Assembly (NCBI GenBank): GCA_016928495.1
Contig: JAFGKQ010000207.1
Span: 1 to 5,425, forward strand
Reading direction: 5' to 3'
Source: Candidatus Fermentibacterales bacterium
Lineage (GTDB): Bacteria; Fermentibacterota; Fermentibacteria; Fermentibacterales; JAFGKQ01
Length of the DNA stretch: 5,425 nucleotides
The position numbers and the translations under genes were made by a program. The notes under the pieces were generated by a model. It was not told the DNA's origin, made no database searches, and saw only the letters and a list, made by a program, of their open reading frames with translations. Below, piece after piece: positions 577-5,425 of this stretch. Position 1 is the stretch's first letter, and every line of letters starts with the position of its first letter.

Positions 577-1727
577 CCCTTCCGGACGAAGCCGCGGGAC
601 CTGCGGCCTTCAGGGTCGTCGCGACCAGCGGGAGGGCCAGGGCGGGGCAGTTGAGGTTCGCAACGGGGTCGGTCGACACCCCGGTCTTCATGCCGGTCGG
701 CACCCAGGGCACCGTCAAGACGGTGCGATGGCCCGACCTTCTCCAGATGGGCTACAACCTGATCCTGGCCAACACCTACCACCTCTACCTCCGGCCTGGC
801 GTGGAGGTAATCGAGCAGGCCGGAGGCCTGCGGTCCTTCACGGGATGGCCAGGCGCGATCCTGACCGACAGCGGCGGCTTCCAGCTCTTCAGTCTGTCCG
901 GGCTGCGCAGGAGCTCGCCGGAGGGCTACCAGTTCAGGTCACACATCGACGGCTCCCTGCACACGCTGACCCCGGAACAGGTGATAGAGCTCCAGATCCG
1001 CTTCGGCAGCGACATCATGATGGTCCTCGATGAGTGCCTCGAGCAACCCAGCGACAGGGAGCGGACCAGCCGGTCGGTGGATCTGACTCTCGATTGGGCA
1101 CAGAGGTCTCGCGATGCCTACAGCGCTGTGGGCTGGAACCGGGGGCGGCTCTTCGGGATCGTCCAGGGAGGGACGTTTCCCGACATGAGAGAGGCCTCGG
1201 CCAGGGAGCTGGTTCGAATGGGCTTCGACGGCTACGCGATAGGCGGCGTGTCTGTAGGCGAGGAAAGACGGGAGACGGAGATCGCCGTCGAATCCTGCGT
1301 GGATATCCTCCCCGCCGGAAGCCCGAGGTACCTCATGGGAGTGGGTAAGCCGGAAGACCTTGTGGACTTCGTGGGACGCGGCATAGATATGTTCGACTGC
1401 GTGGTCCCCACCAGGAACGCCAGGGGAGCGGCCTTCTTCGTGCCGGGAGGGGTGCTGAACATGCGCAACGCCAGGTTCAGGAACGACCACCGCCCCGTCC
1501 AGGAGAGCTGTTCCTGCTTCGCCTGCAGGAACCACACCAGGGCGTACCTGCGTCACCTCTTCCTGGCCAGGGAGTGGCTCGCGCCGATACTGGCCACCCT
1601 CCACAACCTGCAGTACTTCTCGGATCTGATGACCCGGATCAGAGAAGCGATCGTCGCTGGAAGCTACGACTCCTGGCGCGAGCAATGGCACGACGCGAGG
1701 AGGGACTTCGATGCCTCCGCCCATTGA
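573..1727 (+). CDS. tgt: tRNA-guanine(34) transglycosylase, bacterial type, probable CTG start
   Basis: The enzyme swaps guanine-34 of GUN-anticodon tRNAs (Asp, Asn, His, Tyr) for preQ1 in queuosine synthesis; it is cytoplasmic and TIM-barrel shaped. From the CTG the product is 384 residues, within the usual 370-390. Visible motifs: FMPVGTQGTVK near residue 39; DSGGFQ with the active-site Asp at 99; DEC at 153-155; FGIVQGG near 194; GGVSVGE at 224-230; MFDCVVPTRNAR with the nucleophile Asp at 275; and the zinc site Cys313, Cys315, Cys318, His344, spaced as in the Zymomonas enzyme. Cys155 plus Val228 is the bacterial pairing linked to preQ1 use. After TRNAR the usual Asn-Gly is Gly-Ala, a mild departure. 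The family N-terminal strand (FRVVATSGRARAG, residues 13-25) lies upstream of the TTG at 651, so that start is too late. In this frame the only plausible start after the stop at 501-503 is CTG573, which overlaps the previous stop as CTGA. The family call is near certain; the start is less so. Confidence 0.96.
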   Translation: MTLPDEAAGPAAFRVVATSGRARAGQLRFATGSVDTPVFMPVGTQGTVKTVRWPDLLQMGYNLILANTYHLYLRPGVEVIEQAGGLRSFTGWPGAILTDSGGFQLFSLSGLRRSSPEGYQFRSHIDGSLHTLTPEQVIELQIRFGSDIMMVLDECLEQPSDRERTSRSVDLTLDWAQRSRDAYSAVGWNRGRLFGIVQGGTFPDMREASARELVRMGFDGYAIGGVSVGEERRETEIAVESCVDILPAGSPRYLMGVGKPEDLVDFVGRGIDMFDCVVPTRNARGAAFFVPGGVLNMRNARFRNDHRPVQESCSCFACRNHTRAYLRHLFLAREWLAPILATLHNLQYFSDLMTRIREAIVAGSYDSWREQWHDARRDFDASAH

Positions 1728-1798
1728 GGGCCGCGCGCGGAACGCTCCGGCAGGCTGGTGCGACGGGAAGCCCTGAAGGGGCTGGAAGGGGGAGACCG
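1728..1798 (+). other. tgt to wzi-like gene spacer with short inverted repeats
   Basis: This spacer holds the perfect palindrome CCGCGCGCGG (1731-1740), four bases after the tgt stop, and a five-base-pair inverted repeat AGCCC/GGGCT (1769-1783, loop TGAAG) just ahead of the next ribosome-binding site. Neither is followed by a T-run, so a classical intrinsic terminator is not supported. The second hairpin could modulate access to the ribosome-binding site. With no AT-rich promoter-like stretch here, read-through from tgt is the simpler reading. Confidence 0.4.
1786..1794 (+). promoter_or_regulatory. Ribosome-binding site of the Wzi-like gene
   Basis: The purine run AAGGGGGAG ends four bases before the GTG at 1799. 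Together with the signal peptide that begins right there, it favours GTG1799 over the in-frame ATGs at 1574 and 1685, which lie inside tgt. Confidence 0.55.
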
Positions 1799-3280
1799 GT
1801 GAGAGAGGCCGCCCGGGGAACGGGGAGACACTGGCTGTTCGCTGTGGGAGTATGCCTTCTCGCGTGCAGGGCGAGCATCGCAGGGTTCCTACCGCTCGAT
1901 GATCCCCTGGGCATCTGGCTCCACCACGGGGAGGCCGCGGGGCTGCTCCCGCTGCTTGCTCCCATCAGGCCCTTCGGCATGCTCTCCGGACGCTACGCCC
2001 TGGAGGCGACGAAGTCCGATGGCGCACCCGAGCCGGGCGGGATTCCCATGTCTCTCATCGAGGCAGCGGAGAAAAGGCTCGATCTCACGCTCCTATCGCC
2101 CTCCACCAGGTCCGGAGCATCGATCGAGACGGGGGGCTCGGCCACAGTCGAGGCCCTCGATGCCTCCGGCTTCGAGCAGAGGGCAGGCATCAGGATGGGG
2201 ATAGAGGCCGCTCTGCTGCCGGGCCTCGAGCTGCACGAGCAGATGTCTCTCTGGACCGGCTCCGACGATCTTGCGCCATCGTTCTTCCCTTCCTGGCATC
2301 AGGGCTCCGAGCCTGGAAGGCACCTATACGTCGACTGGGCTTTCCTGGATTTCGGATACAGGTGGCTCGAGCTGAGCTTCGGAAGGAAGCCTCAGCAGTG
2401 GGGGCCCGGGAGGTTCACCCAGTTGATGCTCTCGGACAACAGCCCGGGCATCGACATGCTGTGGGTGCAGTACGCGCTGGGCGACGATGCCTCCTTCACC
2501 GGCCTCACTGGCTCGGTCGACAGCGACTCCGGAACCTGGCTGACCGCTCACAGGCTCGACATGACCCCCTGGCCGTTCCTCAGGATCGGGCTCAGCGAGG
2601 CCCTTCTCTACAGCGCCACGGGGATAGACCTGGCCTACACCAACCCCTTCATACCCTGGTACCCCGTGCAATGGAACGAGAGAGAGGACGACAACGCATT
2701 CCTCGGCATCGACGCCACCTTCAGGCCGGCGGACGGCCTGCTGGCATACGGGGAGCTGCTGATAGACGATATCCAGTACCAGAAGGCCAACCAGTATCCG
2801 AACAAGCTCGCGTGGACGCTGGGGCTCGACGGCTGCCTCCGAGGACCCGGACTGGGCGCGGTGCTCGAGTACACGCGTATCGACCGCTACGTCTACAGCC
2901 AGAGGCGCGAGTGCAACTACTACCTGCATGCCGGCAGGATCATCGGCTCGGCCCTCGGACCCGACTGCGACAGGCTGGCCCTTTCGGTCTCGGCCACCAT
3001 CGCACGGCCCCTGCTCTCCGAGCTGAGGATCGACCACACGAGACACGGCGAAGGCGACGTCTACGAAGGCTGGCCCGACAGCGTGCAGGCCCACCAGGTC
3101 TTCCCTTCCGGGGTGGTAGAGCACTCCACGGGTCTGACGCTGGCTCTCTCCGCATACCCCCTCGACTGGCTGCAGGCACACGCCAGCGCATCGAAGAGGT
3201 GGCTGCGCAACAGAGACAACCTGTCGGGCCAGAGCGACAGCGAGCTGGACGGCTCGATACAGCTGCTCTTCGCCTGGTAG
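1799..3280 (+). CDS. Wzi-family (capsule assembly-like) outer-membrane beta-barrel protein
   Basis: The product is 493 residues from GTG. Residues 1-28 form a signal peptide: charged start MREAARGTGR, hydrophobic core LFAVGVCLLA, likely signal peptidase I cut after SIA (26-28). LLAC at 20-23 also resembles a lipobox, so a lipoprotein cannot be excluded. The mature start (PLDDPLGIWLHHGEAAGLL) resembles the short N-terminal helical segment of this family. The central hallmarks are FGRKPQQWGPG (194-204), LSDNSPGIDML (211-221), AHRLD (250-254), LSEALLYS (265-272), LAYTNPF (278-284), DDNAFLGID (297-305) and YGELLIDD (317-324). This order matches the Wzi/capsule assembly family as I know it. Alternating polar and hydrophobic strands continue to a C-terminal Trp (LLFAW), as expected for a barrel recognised by BamA. 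E. coli Wzi is a lectin-like barrel that anchors group 1 capsule; many relatives in other phyla have no proven role, so a function in surface polysaccharide is inference. No capsule genes are in view. It probably shares a transcript with tgt. Confidence 0.85.
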   Translation: MREAARGTGRHWLFAVGVCLLACRASIAGFLPLDDPLGIWLHHGEAAGLLPLLAPIRPFGMLSGRYALEATKSDGAPEPGGIPMSLIEAAEKRLDLTLLSPSTRSGASIETGGSATVEALDASGFEQRAGIRMGIEAALLPGLELHEQMSLWTGSDDLAPSFFPSWHQGSEPGRHLYVDWAFLDFGYRWLELSFGRKPQQWGPGRFTQLMLSDNSPGIDMLWVQYALGDDASFTGLTGSVDSDSGTWLTAHRLDMTPWPFLRIGLSEALLYSATGIDLAYTNPFIPWYPVQWNEREDDNAFLGIDATFRPADGLLAYGELLIDDIQYQKANQYPNKLAWTLGLDGCLRGPGLGAVLEYTRIDRYVYSQRRECNYYLHAGRIIGSALGPDCDRLALSVSATIARPLLSELRIDHTRHGEGDVYEGWPDSVQAHQVFPSGVVEHSTGLTLALSAYPLDWLQAHASASKRWLRNRDNLSGQSDSELDGSIQLLFAW

Positions 3281-3325: not shown

Positions 3326-3340
3326 AGGGATATTTTCCCT
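3326..3340 (+). other. Short AT-loop inverted repeat AGGGA-TATTT-TCCCT
   Basis: The two five-base arms are perfectly complementary around an AT-only five-base loop. Such a dyad could be an operator half-site pair or a weak hairpin. It overlaps the only promoter-like AT-rich patch in the gap, which would suit a repressor site, but this is inference from position alone. Confidence 0.25.
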
Positions 3341-3399: not shown

Positions 3400-5425
3400 A
3401 TGGAGCTGGAGGGAATAGTATCCAGGCGTCACCTGAGCGGCGGGCGCACGGACGTCGTGTTCATCTCCGGCGGGGAGCGCAGGATCGGGCGCGTCTTCCG
3501 GTACGAGGGCGACCCCGAGGTAGTCAGGGAGATGGTCCGCAAGCTCTCGGGGCTCGACGTCCCGGGAGTTGTCCTGCCCACGGAGGTCAGGGAGGCCGGC
3601 AACAGGCTGCTCTGCCTCTCGGCCAGCGGAGTCGGGGTCACCCCGTACACCGGTCCGCCCATGAGCTTCGGTGCTCTGATAGAACCGATCCTGCGCCTTC
3701 ATTCGTCAGGCCTGCTCCATCTCGGCATAGGCCCCCAGAGCTACGTGACCCGTAGCGGAAAGCCGCACCTGCTCTTCTGGGGGGACTCTCTGCTCACCCA
3801 CGCGGACCCGGATCTGATGCCGGCGGAGGTAACGTCCGGCGGGTTCGCAACCCCGGCCGCGGACTTCCACATGCTAGGAAGAGCCATGCTCTCCAGCCGC
3901 GGATACCTCTGGGACGACCCGGAGGCACCCGAGATCTCGCTTCTCATGGACTCGAGGCCCTCCAGGCGCCTCAATGCCGTATCGGACCGCACGGACCTCC
4001 CCGCGCCGGCGTCTCTGCCGAGGGAGGCGAGGTGGCTTCCGAAGCCCGGCTTCACGCTCGTATCGGGAGGCTCCTGGCAGCAGAGGGACTCCCTGGTCAA
4101 CGAGTGGGTCTCGACGGCCGCGGGAAGGGGATGGGGTGTAAGGGTGGTTCGCTGCAGGCCACAGGAGAGCATGCGCTCCCTGCCCGATAGACCGGCCGGG
4201 GGGGGAGCCGTCGACTCGCCTGCGACCCTTGTCAGGACCCTGTTCCCTGCCGCGAGCGGTGTCGAGAGACTGGTCGTGTTCGATCAGGTAGACTACGCCT
4301 CGGAGGACCTCCTGGACATCCTCTGCGACTTCATGGGCGCCTCGCCCCCAGACATGGCCGTCGTCCTGACCCAGGCCAGGTCGCCGGTCTTCCCGGACCG
4401 GGCCTCCATAGCCGAGGAGGTCAGGCTCCCGGGGGAAGCTACCGCCGCGATCGACCTGGACATCTTCGATGTCGGGGATATCGCGGAGACCGGAGGCTAC
4501 CCCGGGCCGGCATGGTTCGGTGTCAGGTTCCGTGCGGAGGCACAGGCGGTCACGCAGCCGTCTCCGCTCGGATTGACCCTTCAGCAGCTTCACGACGAAG
4601 GCTCCTACAGAGCTGCCTGCCAGTCTGCCGGGGAGTCTACGGAGACCCTCTCTGACTCCGAAAGGACCATAGTGGCGGCCTGTTGCGTCAGGCTCGGCAG
4701 GTTCGCGGACGCGGAGGCTCTGGCTCCCGACTCCGCTCCTCTCGTGCGGGGAAGGGCGCTCCTCGGAATGGGACGGAACAGGGAGGCGGAAGCGCTGCTC
4801 CGTGACTCCCTGGGCTCGGATGGTGACGCATCCCGCTCCGACAAGGCCCTTCTTCTCGCCAGGTGTCTGGTGGAGCAGAGCCGCTTCGATGAGGCAAGCC
4901 TGCTGCTGCGGGAGCTCGACGACCTGCGGGCGATCCCGCTTCTGGCCAGGATCCTCGACATGCAGGGACGACCCTCCGAGGCCCTGCCTCTGCTCCGCGA
5001 GGCGCTCGATTCGGCCCTCGAATCCGATCGCGTGGCCCTGCTCTCCTCTCTTGCGAACGTCAGTATGAGGCTCGGAAGCTATGGCGCGGCACTCGAGGCC
5101 GCAGACGAGGCCGTGGAGATCTCCAGACGGCAGGCCGACCCTCTCGCTCTCAGGATGAGCCTGCAGGAGCGGGGACGTGTTCGAGAGGTCCTGGGGAGAT
5201 GGCCCGAAGCTCTGGAGGACTATGGCCTTGCATCCTTCTACGCGAGCGAGTCCCTCGAGAGATCCTCGAGACCGCCACACGTAGACCTCTACGTCCTGCA
5301 ACTTGCCATGGGTGAGCTCCAGTCCGCCTTCAGGACCTTCGACGAGCTGAGCAACATGCTCACGCTGGAGGGAAGCGGGGGCGCCCTGCAGCTCCTCAGC
5401 ATGCTGACGGCCTACACAGGAGTCC
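3400..5425 (+). CDS. Degenerate kinase - degenerate AAA/STAND ATPase - TPR signalling protein (3' end outside window)
   Basis: The ATG at 3400 opens 675 codons without a stop to the window end. Residues 8 to about 205 follow the Ser/Thr kinase fold: LHSSGLLHLGIGPQSYV (100-116) aligns with the catalytic loop, PHLLFWG (122-128) with the DFG strand, PAE (141-143) with APE, and ADFHMLG (154-160) with the SDxxSLG of helix F. HRD reads HLG, the Asn of the loop is Ser114, and DFG reads FWG, so phosphotransfer is unlikely. Residues about 210-380 resemble the AAA_16/STAND module beside such kinases. LVSGGSWQQRDSL (220-232) sits where Walker A belongs but lacks GK[ST]: Arg229 and Asp230 replace Lys and Ser/Thr. 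LVVFDQVD (291-298) is Walker B with Asp295 kept and the second acidic residue changed to Gln296. From about 388 on there are TPR-type helical hairpins (for example RFDEASLLLREL, RPSEALPLLREAL, SYGAALEAADEAVEI, RWPEALEDYGLAS). No transmembrane segment is visible. It probably acts as a cytoplasmic scaffold, sensor or allosteric partner; ligand and partner are unknown. The fold calls are by eye and the sequence is divergent. Confidence 0.8.
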   Translation, partial: MELEGIVSRRHLSGGRTDVVFISGGERRIGRVFRYEGDPEVVREMVRKLSGLDVPGVVLPTEVREAGNRLLCLSASGVGVTPYTGPPMSFGALIEPILRLHSSGLLHLGIGPQSYVTRSGKPHLLFWGDSLLTHADPDLMPAEVTSGGFATPAADFHMLGRAMLSSRGYLWDDPEAPEISLLMDSRPSRRLNAVSDRTDLPAPASLPREARWLPKPGFTLVSGGSWQQRDSLVNEWVSTAAGRGWGVRVVRCRPQESMRSLPDRPAGGGAVDSPATLVRTLFPAASGVERLVVFDQVDYASEDLLDILCDFMGASPPDMAVVLTQARSPVFPDRASIAEEVRLPGEATAAIDLDIFDVGDIAETGGYPGPAWFGVRFRAEAQAVTQPSPLGLTLQQLHDEGSYRAACQSAGESTETLSDSERTIVAACCVRLGRFADAEALAPDSAPLVRGRALLGMGRNREAEALLRDSLGSDGDASRSDKALLLARCLVEQSRFDEASLLLRELDDLRAIPLLARILDMQGRPSEALPLLREALDSALESDRVALLSSLANVSMRLGSYGAALEAADEAVEISRRQADPLALRMSLQERGRVREVLGRWPEALEDYGLASFYASESLERSSRPPHVDLYVLQLAMGELQSAFRTFDELSNMLTLEGSGGALQLLSMLTAYTGV

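Follow-up and report, generated by a model that had tools for sequence, protein, structure and literature searches.

Bacterial Ser/Thr kinases and pseudokinases of the CP1 group are linked to a COG3899 ATPase and to FhlA or PAS domains (PMC12599244). A 2025 review describes bacterial pseudokinases as experimentally largely unexplored, and the role of the CP1 pseudokinases of Leptospira as almost wholly unknown (PMC12599244). A bEBP with a comparable arrangement of sites is PspF, which at a shared enhancer drives a divergent σ54 promoter and limits its own σ70 promoter (PMC3709507). A literature search for kinase- or pseudokinase-fused σ54 activators returned only the CP1 review.

The DNA considered here (the window, 5,425 bp) is the entire contig C302. 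An ATG at 3400 opens a reading frame that has no stop through the end of the window and encodes 675 aa; because the window is a whole contig, the protein is truncated at residue 675. In full, the gene quite probably encodes a single-component σ54 enhancer-binding protein consisting of a pseudokinase, a degenerate STAND-like NTPase, a TPR region, a σ54 AAA+ motor and a Fis-type helix-turn-helix (HTH), with the regulon predicted below. Its features are as follows.

3400..5424, + strand: predicted σ54 activator gene, 5′ part, encoding 675 of the ~1,275 residues predicted; truncated by the contig end, remainder placed on G000:C43
3400..3999, + strand: pseudokinase domain (aa 1-200), from AlphaFold2, fold search and a weak family-profile match to kinases
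3718..3726, + strand: HLG replacing HRD (aa 107-109); Asp at 109 in 13/19 orthologues
3775..3783, + strand: FWG replacing DFG (aa 126-128); Asp missing from 19/19
4036..4434, + strand: degenerate AAA+/STAND-like NTPase domain (about aa 213-345)
4066..4089, + strand: P-loop position, GGSWQQRD (aa 223-230); G224, W226, R229 and D230 invariant in the family
4597..5424, + strand: TPR region (about aa 400-675), incomplete at the contig end; TPR families score above the Pfam cut-off
L068:15005-16793, − strand: probable 3′ part of the activator gene, on G000:C43, ~600 aa

Matches to the window protein at E ≤ 0.001 are found in 25 of the genomes searched, and the near-full-length matches have 32-42% identity in open frames of 1,124-1,305 aa. 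Records that carry a name assign the family to Candidatus Fermentibacteria/Sabulitectum. Residue columns were counted over 19 aligned orthologues, the window included (19-20 in the alignments); an alignment of seven closer orthologues was also made.

Two degenerate enzyme cores

Neither the kinase nor the AAA domain is detected by Pfam; both are visible only by profile and fold. The window protein gives no kinase and no AAA_16 (PF13191) match in Pfam, and neither do residues 1-400 of any single orthologue; on the window protein, Pfam and NCBIfam together return only TPR-type matches. The family profile matches kinases weakly among PDB sequences (best E 0.007 among the matches shown). The AlphaFold2 model of aa 1-400, with 19 sequences as input, has a pLDDT of 90.5 and a pTM of 0.90, and its residues 1-200 form a small kinase fold: Foldseek matches PknA (E 1.3e-7), comparison with MST3 gives VIA Z 14.5 (rmsd 3.6, 196 aligned), and the JAK1 pseudokinase and ERBB3 are among the fold matches. 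Since the matches to the aa 1-400 model were taken up by kinases, a separate prediction was made for the NTPase part (pLDDT 84.6), which has a P-loop NTPase fold in the predicted structure and resembles AAA+ clamp loaders, Orc1/Cdc6 and the STAND regulator MalT (Z 10.7-11.2; for MalT, 8bob, Z 10.7 and 174 aligned). Structure prediction thereby bears out the kinase and AAA/STAND-like folds that the initial annotation had proposed.

The substitutions listed in that annotation, HLG (107-109), Ser114, FWG (126-128) and Arg229-Asp230, read as stated in the sequence; their conservation, on which the annotation's reading depended, holds in part. The DFG Asp and the catalytic-loop Asn are each present in 0/19 aligned orthologues, Arg229-Asp230 is invariant, and the Lys and Ser/Thr of Walker A (GxxxxGK[ST], here GGSWQQRD) are missing in all of them. 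The HRD Asp, however, is kept in 13/19, with Gly in two (the window and L041) and Ser in four; its loss in the window protein is local and no family trait. The structural residues said to remain divide similarly: G104, Glu143 (APE) and Asp155 (helix F) are invariant in the 19 orthologues, as is Arg190, and G128 is found in 18/19, but H107 (16/19), G160 (15/19), D295 (14/19) and P112 (11/19) vary. The window protein therefore lacks the HRD Asp, loop Asn and DFG Asp that mark an active Ser/Thr kinase, and combines a kinase fold with loss of at least one of the catalytic motifs (VAIK Lys, HRD Asp, DFG Asp), as pseudokinases do. At the level of sequence the architecture, the residue losses and their conservation are established; the N-terminal domains probably lack catalysis.

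It is possible, though doubtful, that relocated residues allow the N-terminal modules to go on binding nucleotide, or even to catalyse, which would make the protein an unconventional nucleotide sensor. Candidates for such residues are Arg31 in strand 3 (18/19 orthologues), the HLD Asp of most orthologues (the HRD Asp, 13/19) and Arg229 in place of the Walker Lys; the Walker B Asp of the NTPase part is present in 14/19, R229-D230 is invariant, and some pseudokinases bind ATP by other routes (PMC12599244). Against this, the DFG Asp and loop Asn are gone from every aligned orthologue, and so are the Walker A Lys and Ser/Thr. On the preferred reading these modules most likely have no phosphorylating activity; their role would instead be to detect a ligand or a protein and to regulate the AAA+ motor. 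The more specific proposal, that a two-pseudoenzyme sensor with an invariant GGxWxxRD at its P-loop directly gates the σ54 motor and controls secreted-protein genes, stands at roughly even chances; if true, the input to this σ54 activator would need neither phosphorylation nor, perhaps, nucleotide binding.

A paralogous regulator clade (L042, L043, L047, L048, and L049) has HLS in the place of HRD. Both regulator types occur together in some genomes (G019, G025, G020, and G037), and in L042 an ammonium transporter gene lies directly downstream of the regulator.

The σ54 motor and its predicted sites and regulon

The half of the gene placed on C43 carries a σ54 AAA+ domain (PF00158, E 2.5e-66) in which Walker A (GSTGTGKE) and Walker B (FLDEIG) are both intact, and at its C-terminus GNRARAAEMLGVDPKTLRKYL, a Fis-type HTH. 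Orthologues end with the σ54 AAA+ activator domain (PF00158, E 5e-56 to 2e-64 in five orthologues by Pfam) and its lid; HTH_8 (Fis-type) is over the Pfam cut-off in one of the five (L036) and weaker in L044 and L048. RpoN is encoded in all 42 genomes (rpoN, 42/42). As the protein would continue into an intact σ54 motor and a DNA-binding HTH, the dead modules become the regulatory end of a transcription activator, and the predicted product is a bEBP with a dead kinase/NTPase/TPR sensor.

The GAFTGA position reads GAYTDS in the C43 half and in L036, and GAFTGA is kept in six orthologues; across L036, L041, and L044-L046 it reads GAYTDS, GAFTDS, GSYTDL or GAYTDL. In a published list of variants expected to retain activity, GAFTDA and GAYTDA both occur (PMC4641369). 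Despite its GAYTDS, the window genome has a perfect σ54 site at its own F1 gene, given below together with the palindrome.

3327..3339, no strand: palindrome GGGATATTTTCCC, predicted operator of the regulator gene; the only GGGAWAWTTTCCC match in the genome
G000:C143:1760-1874: palindrome/σ54 pair before F1 in the window genome, with the perfect σ54 site TGGCACGTGAGTTGCT

GGGATATTTTCCC sits 60 bp upstream of the start codon at 3400, and in relatives GGGAWAWTTTCCC is found mostly at the regulator gene. In six orthologues the promoter-proximal palindrome overlaps a −10 element, and a hexamer, TAGACA or TTGACA, lies 17 bp farther upstream; at the window's own palindrome the match is weaker than in the orthologues, and promoter scanning of the window by itself gave no σ70 promoter over threshold there. 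Most orthologues have a second palindrome farther upstream. Of 18 orthologue loci, 15 have a σ54-like site (at least 9 of 11 positions) directed away from the regulator, and none (0/18) has one directed towards it. The genes to which these sites point belong to families F2 (~580 aa) and F1 (~190 aa); their products have signal-peptide-like N-termini, and those of F1 carry the motif YDDG...W..GG.YRG.WF. From the GGGA-N5-TCCC palindrome to the σ54 site the distance is 77-87 bp in most cases and about 65 bp in some.

In the 42 genomes the combination of palindrome and σ54 site has 28 matches and the reversed pattern 7. Of the genomes with the regulator, 13/21 carry such a pair in front of F1 or F2, against 0/21 of those without it (one-sided Fisher 8e-6, a value that ignores relatedness, with most pairs lying beside the regulator). 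For these reasons the stronger evidence comes from the four pairs before F1 genes that are unlinked to the regulator: one in the genome of the window, two in G008 and one in G019. Family F1 has many members and the pair is missing from most of those sampled, so the predicted regulon is narrow.

The arrangement of sites and their co-occurrence with the gene can be read directly from these genomes. The regulon likely comprises secreted-protein genes with a palindrome ~65-87 bp upstream of σ54 promoters; which protein binds the palindromes, and in which direction it regulates, we infer as follows. The HTH is predicted to bind GGGA-N5-TCCC palindromes. Bound at that distance upstream of σ54 promoters, the activator would switch on F1 secreted-protein genes, and in one clade F2 as well; at the regulator's promoter, binding would restrain production of the activator itself in a PspF-like manner.

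An unlikely alternative is that the palindrome belongs to another regulator and that the window protein acts at other σ54 promoters. G023 has no regulator orthologue and yet contains three tandem palindrome/σ54 pairs (G023:C21:10701-12379; L093, L105, and L110), each preceding a gene whose ~130 aa product has an N-terminus like a signal peptide; a different protein may therefore use a site of similar form. This alternative does not sit well with the single occurrence of GGGAWAWTTTCCC in the window genome and its position, mostly at the regulator gene, in relatives, or with the confinement of pairs before F1/F2 to genomes that carry the regulator. Recognition of the palindromes by the activator itself remains the preferred reading.

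The C-termini of F1 proteins share a conserved tail, [ST]W[GA]x[LIV]KxxF (L089:1753-2250, L045:11216-11737, L049:2870-3941, and others), which is possibly a C-terminal sorting signal; a DNA pattern for an F1-type tail followed by a TAG stop has nine matches in the window's genome and none for the reversed control. Family F3, which includes a peptidase C25 (gingipain-type) gene (L033:2-1792; PF01364, E 1.9e-38), is represented in eight of the loci and mostly lies downstream of the regulator gene. In three genomes a gene for a cyclase-AAA_16-TPR protein (PF00211, PF13191; L033:1884-5924) lies directly downstream of the regulator; AAA_16 proteins are numerous in the window genome.

Selection and continuity of the gene

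In four pairs the kinase and NTPase domains have dN/dS values of 0.10-0.27; in the closest pair, where substitutions are few, the values are 0.26 and, for the NTPase part, 0.47. G224, W226, R229, D230, E143, D155, and R190 are invariant despite 25-45% identity. Catalytic residues absent throughout, fixed structural residues and low dN/dS together indicate that the losses are fixed and the domains kept by selection. These sequence comparisons thus support fixed loss of the DFG Asp, the loop Asn and the Walker A Lys-Ser/Thr in domains under selection, in agreement with the proposal of the initial annotation that catalysis was lost by selection and not by decay. That both cores are functionless, decaying remnants is very improbable: the HRD and Walker B Asp do vary across orthologues, and the NTPase part of the closest pair reaches 0.47 on few changes, but the seven invariant residues and the values of 0.10-0.27 in the remaining pairs lead to rejection of decay.

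The same annotation took the product to be a full-length scaffold, which does not stand, as the contig ends within the gene, another ~600 aa probably lie on C43, and the orthologues run on into a σ54 motor and HTH, holding all domains in one frame of ~1,230-1,300 aa. The C43 half matches the orthologues (E 1e-149) from orthologue residue 680 onward and is the only C-terminal half in the window's genome with an orthologue match beyond the motor. Its frame starts four alignment columns past the end of the window protein, and its neighbours (families F20, F11, and F31) are the same as those beside the orthologues in L036, L044, and L045. C43 thus probably carries the other half of the window's gene; the ends of C302 and C43 were compared for an overlap and none was found, for which reason we infer the join instead of reading it. 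A free-standing pseudokinase-pseudoSTAND-TPR scaffold, with the C43 protein separate, would fit that missing overlap but is scarcely credible beside orthologues with all domains in one frame and a C43 frame that begins in register, with downstream genes typical of orthologue loci.

Contig C137, which has a σ54 activator at its edge, was considered as the missing half and rejected, its orthologue match extending over the motor only and its N-terminal part being different. A scan of the genome contigs with the window protein as query found no relative. Upstream of the activator gene, the window (651-3277) encodes a tRNA-guanine transglycosylase (PF01702) and a Wzi-like capsule assembly protein (PF14052); homologues (family F10) are also found near the regulator in L036 and L044.

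Comparison with known activators

The window family resembles MalT in having an NTPase fold followed by TPR-like repeats, and differs from it in that the Walker A Lys-Ser/Thr is missing. MalT is not known to depend on σ54. The site arrangement at the regulator loci, here a prediction, is like that of pspF/pspA; PspF, however, is without an N-terminal sensor of the kind found in the window family, and, unlike in pspF/pspA, the target in the window's own genome is not adjacent to the regulator. Two proteins of other phyla (L132 and L136) have the order kinase-TPR-GAF-σ54-HTH and share with the window family the order kinase, TPR, σ54 motor, HTH_8. Their kinase domains match Pkinase (E 1.8e-29 and 4e-13) and still have the Asp and Asn of the catalytic loop as well as the DFG Asp, unlike the window family, in which Pfam also finds no GAF domain.

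By domain description, the window family is most like CP1: an N-terminal degenerate kinase is followed by an ATPase-like domain, here a STAND-like fold with TPR repeats, and many CP1 members add an FhlA-type activator. In contrast to the CP1 description, the ATPase-like domain is also degenerate, the family belongs to Candidatus Fermentibacteria, and it comes with a predicted operator and regulon. Fusions of kinases with σ54 activators are thus already known; what is new here is that both N-terminal enzyme cores are degenerate and that a regulon can be predicted. With a predicted output (σ54 activation), operator and target genes, this pseudokinase makes it directly testable what a dead kinase does in the control of bacterial transcription, in a field largely unexplored by experiment.
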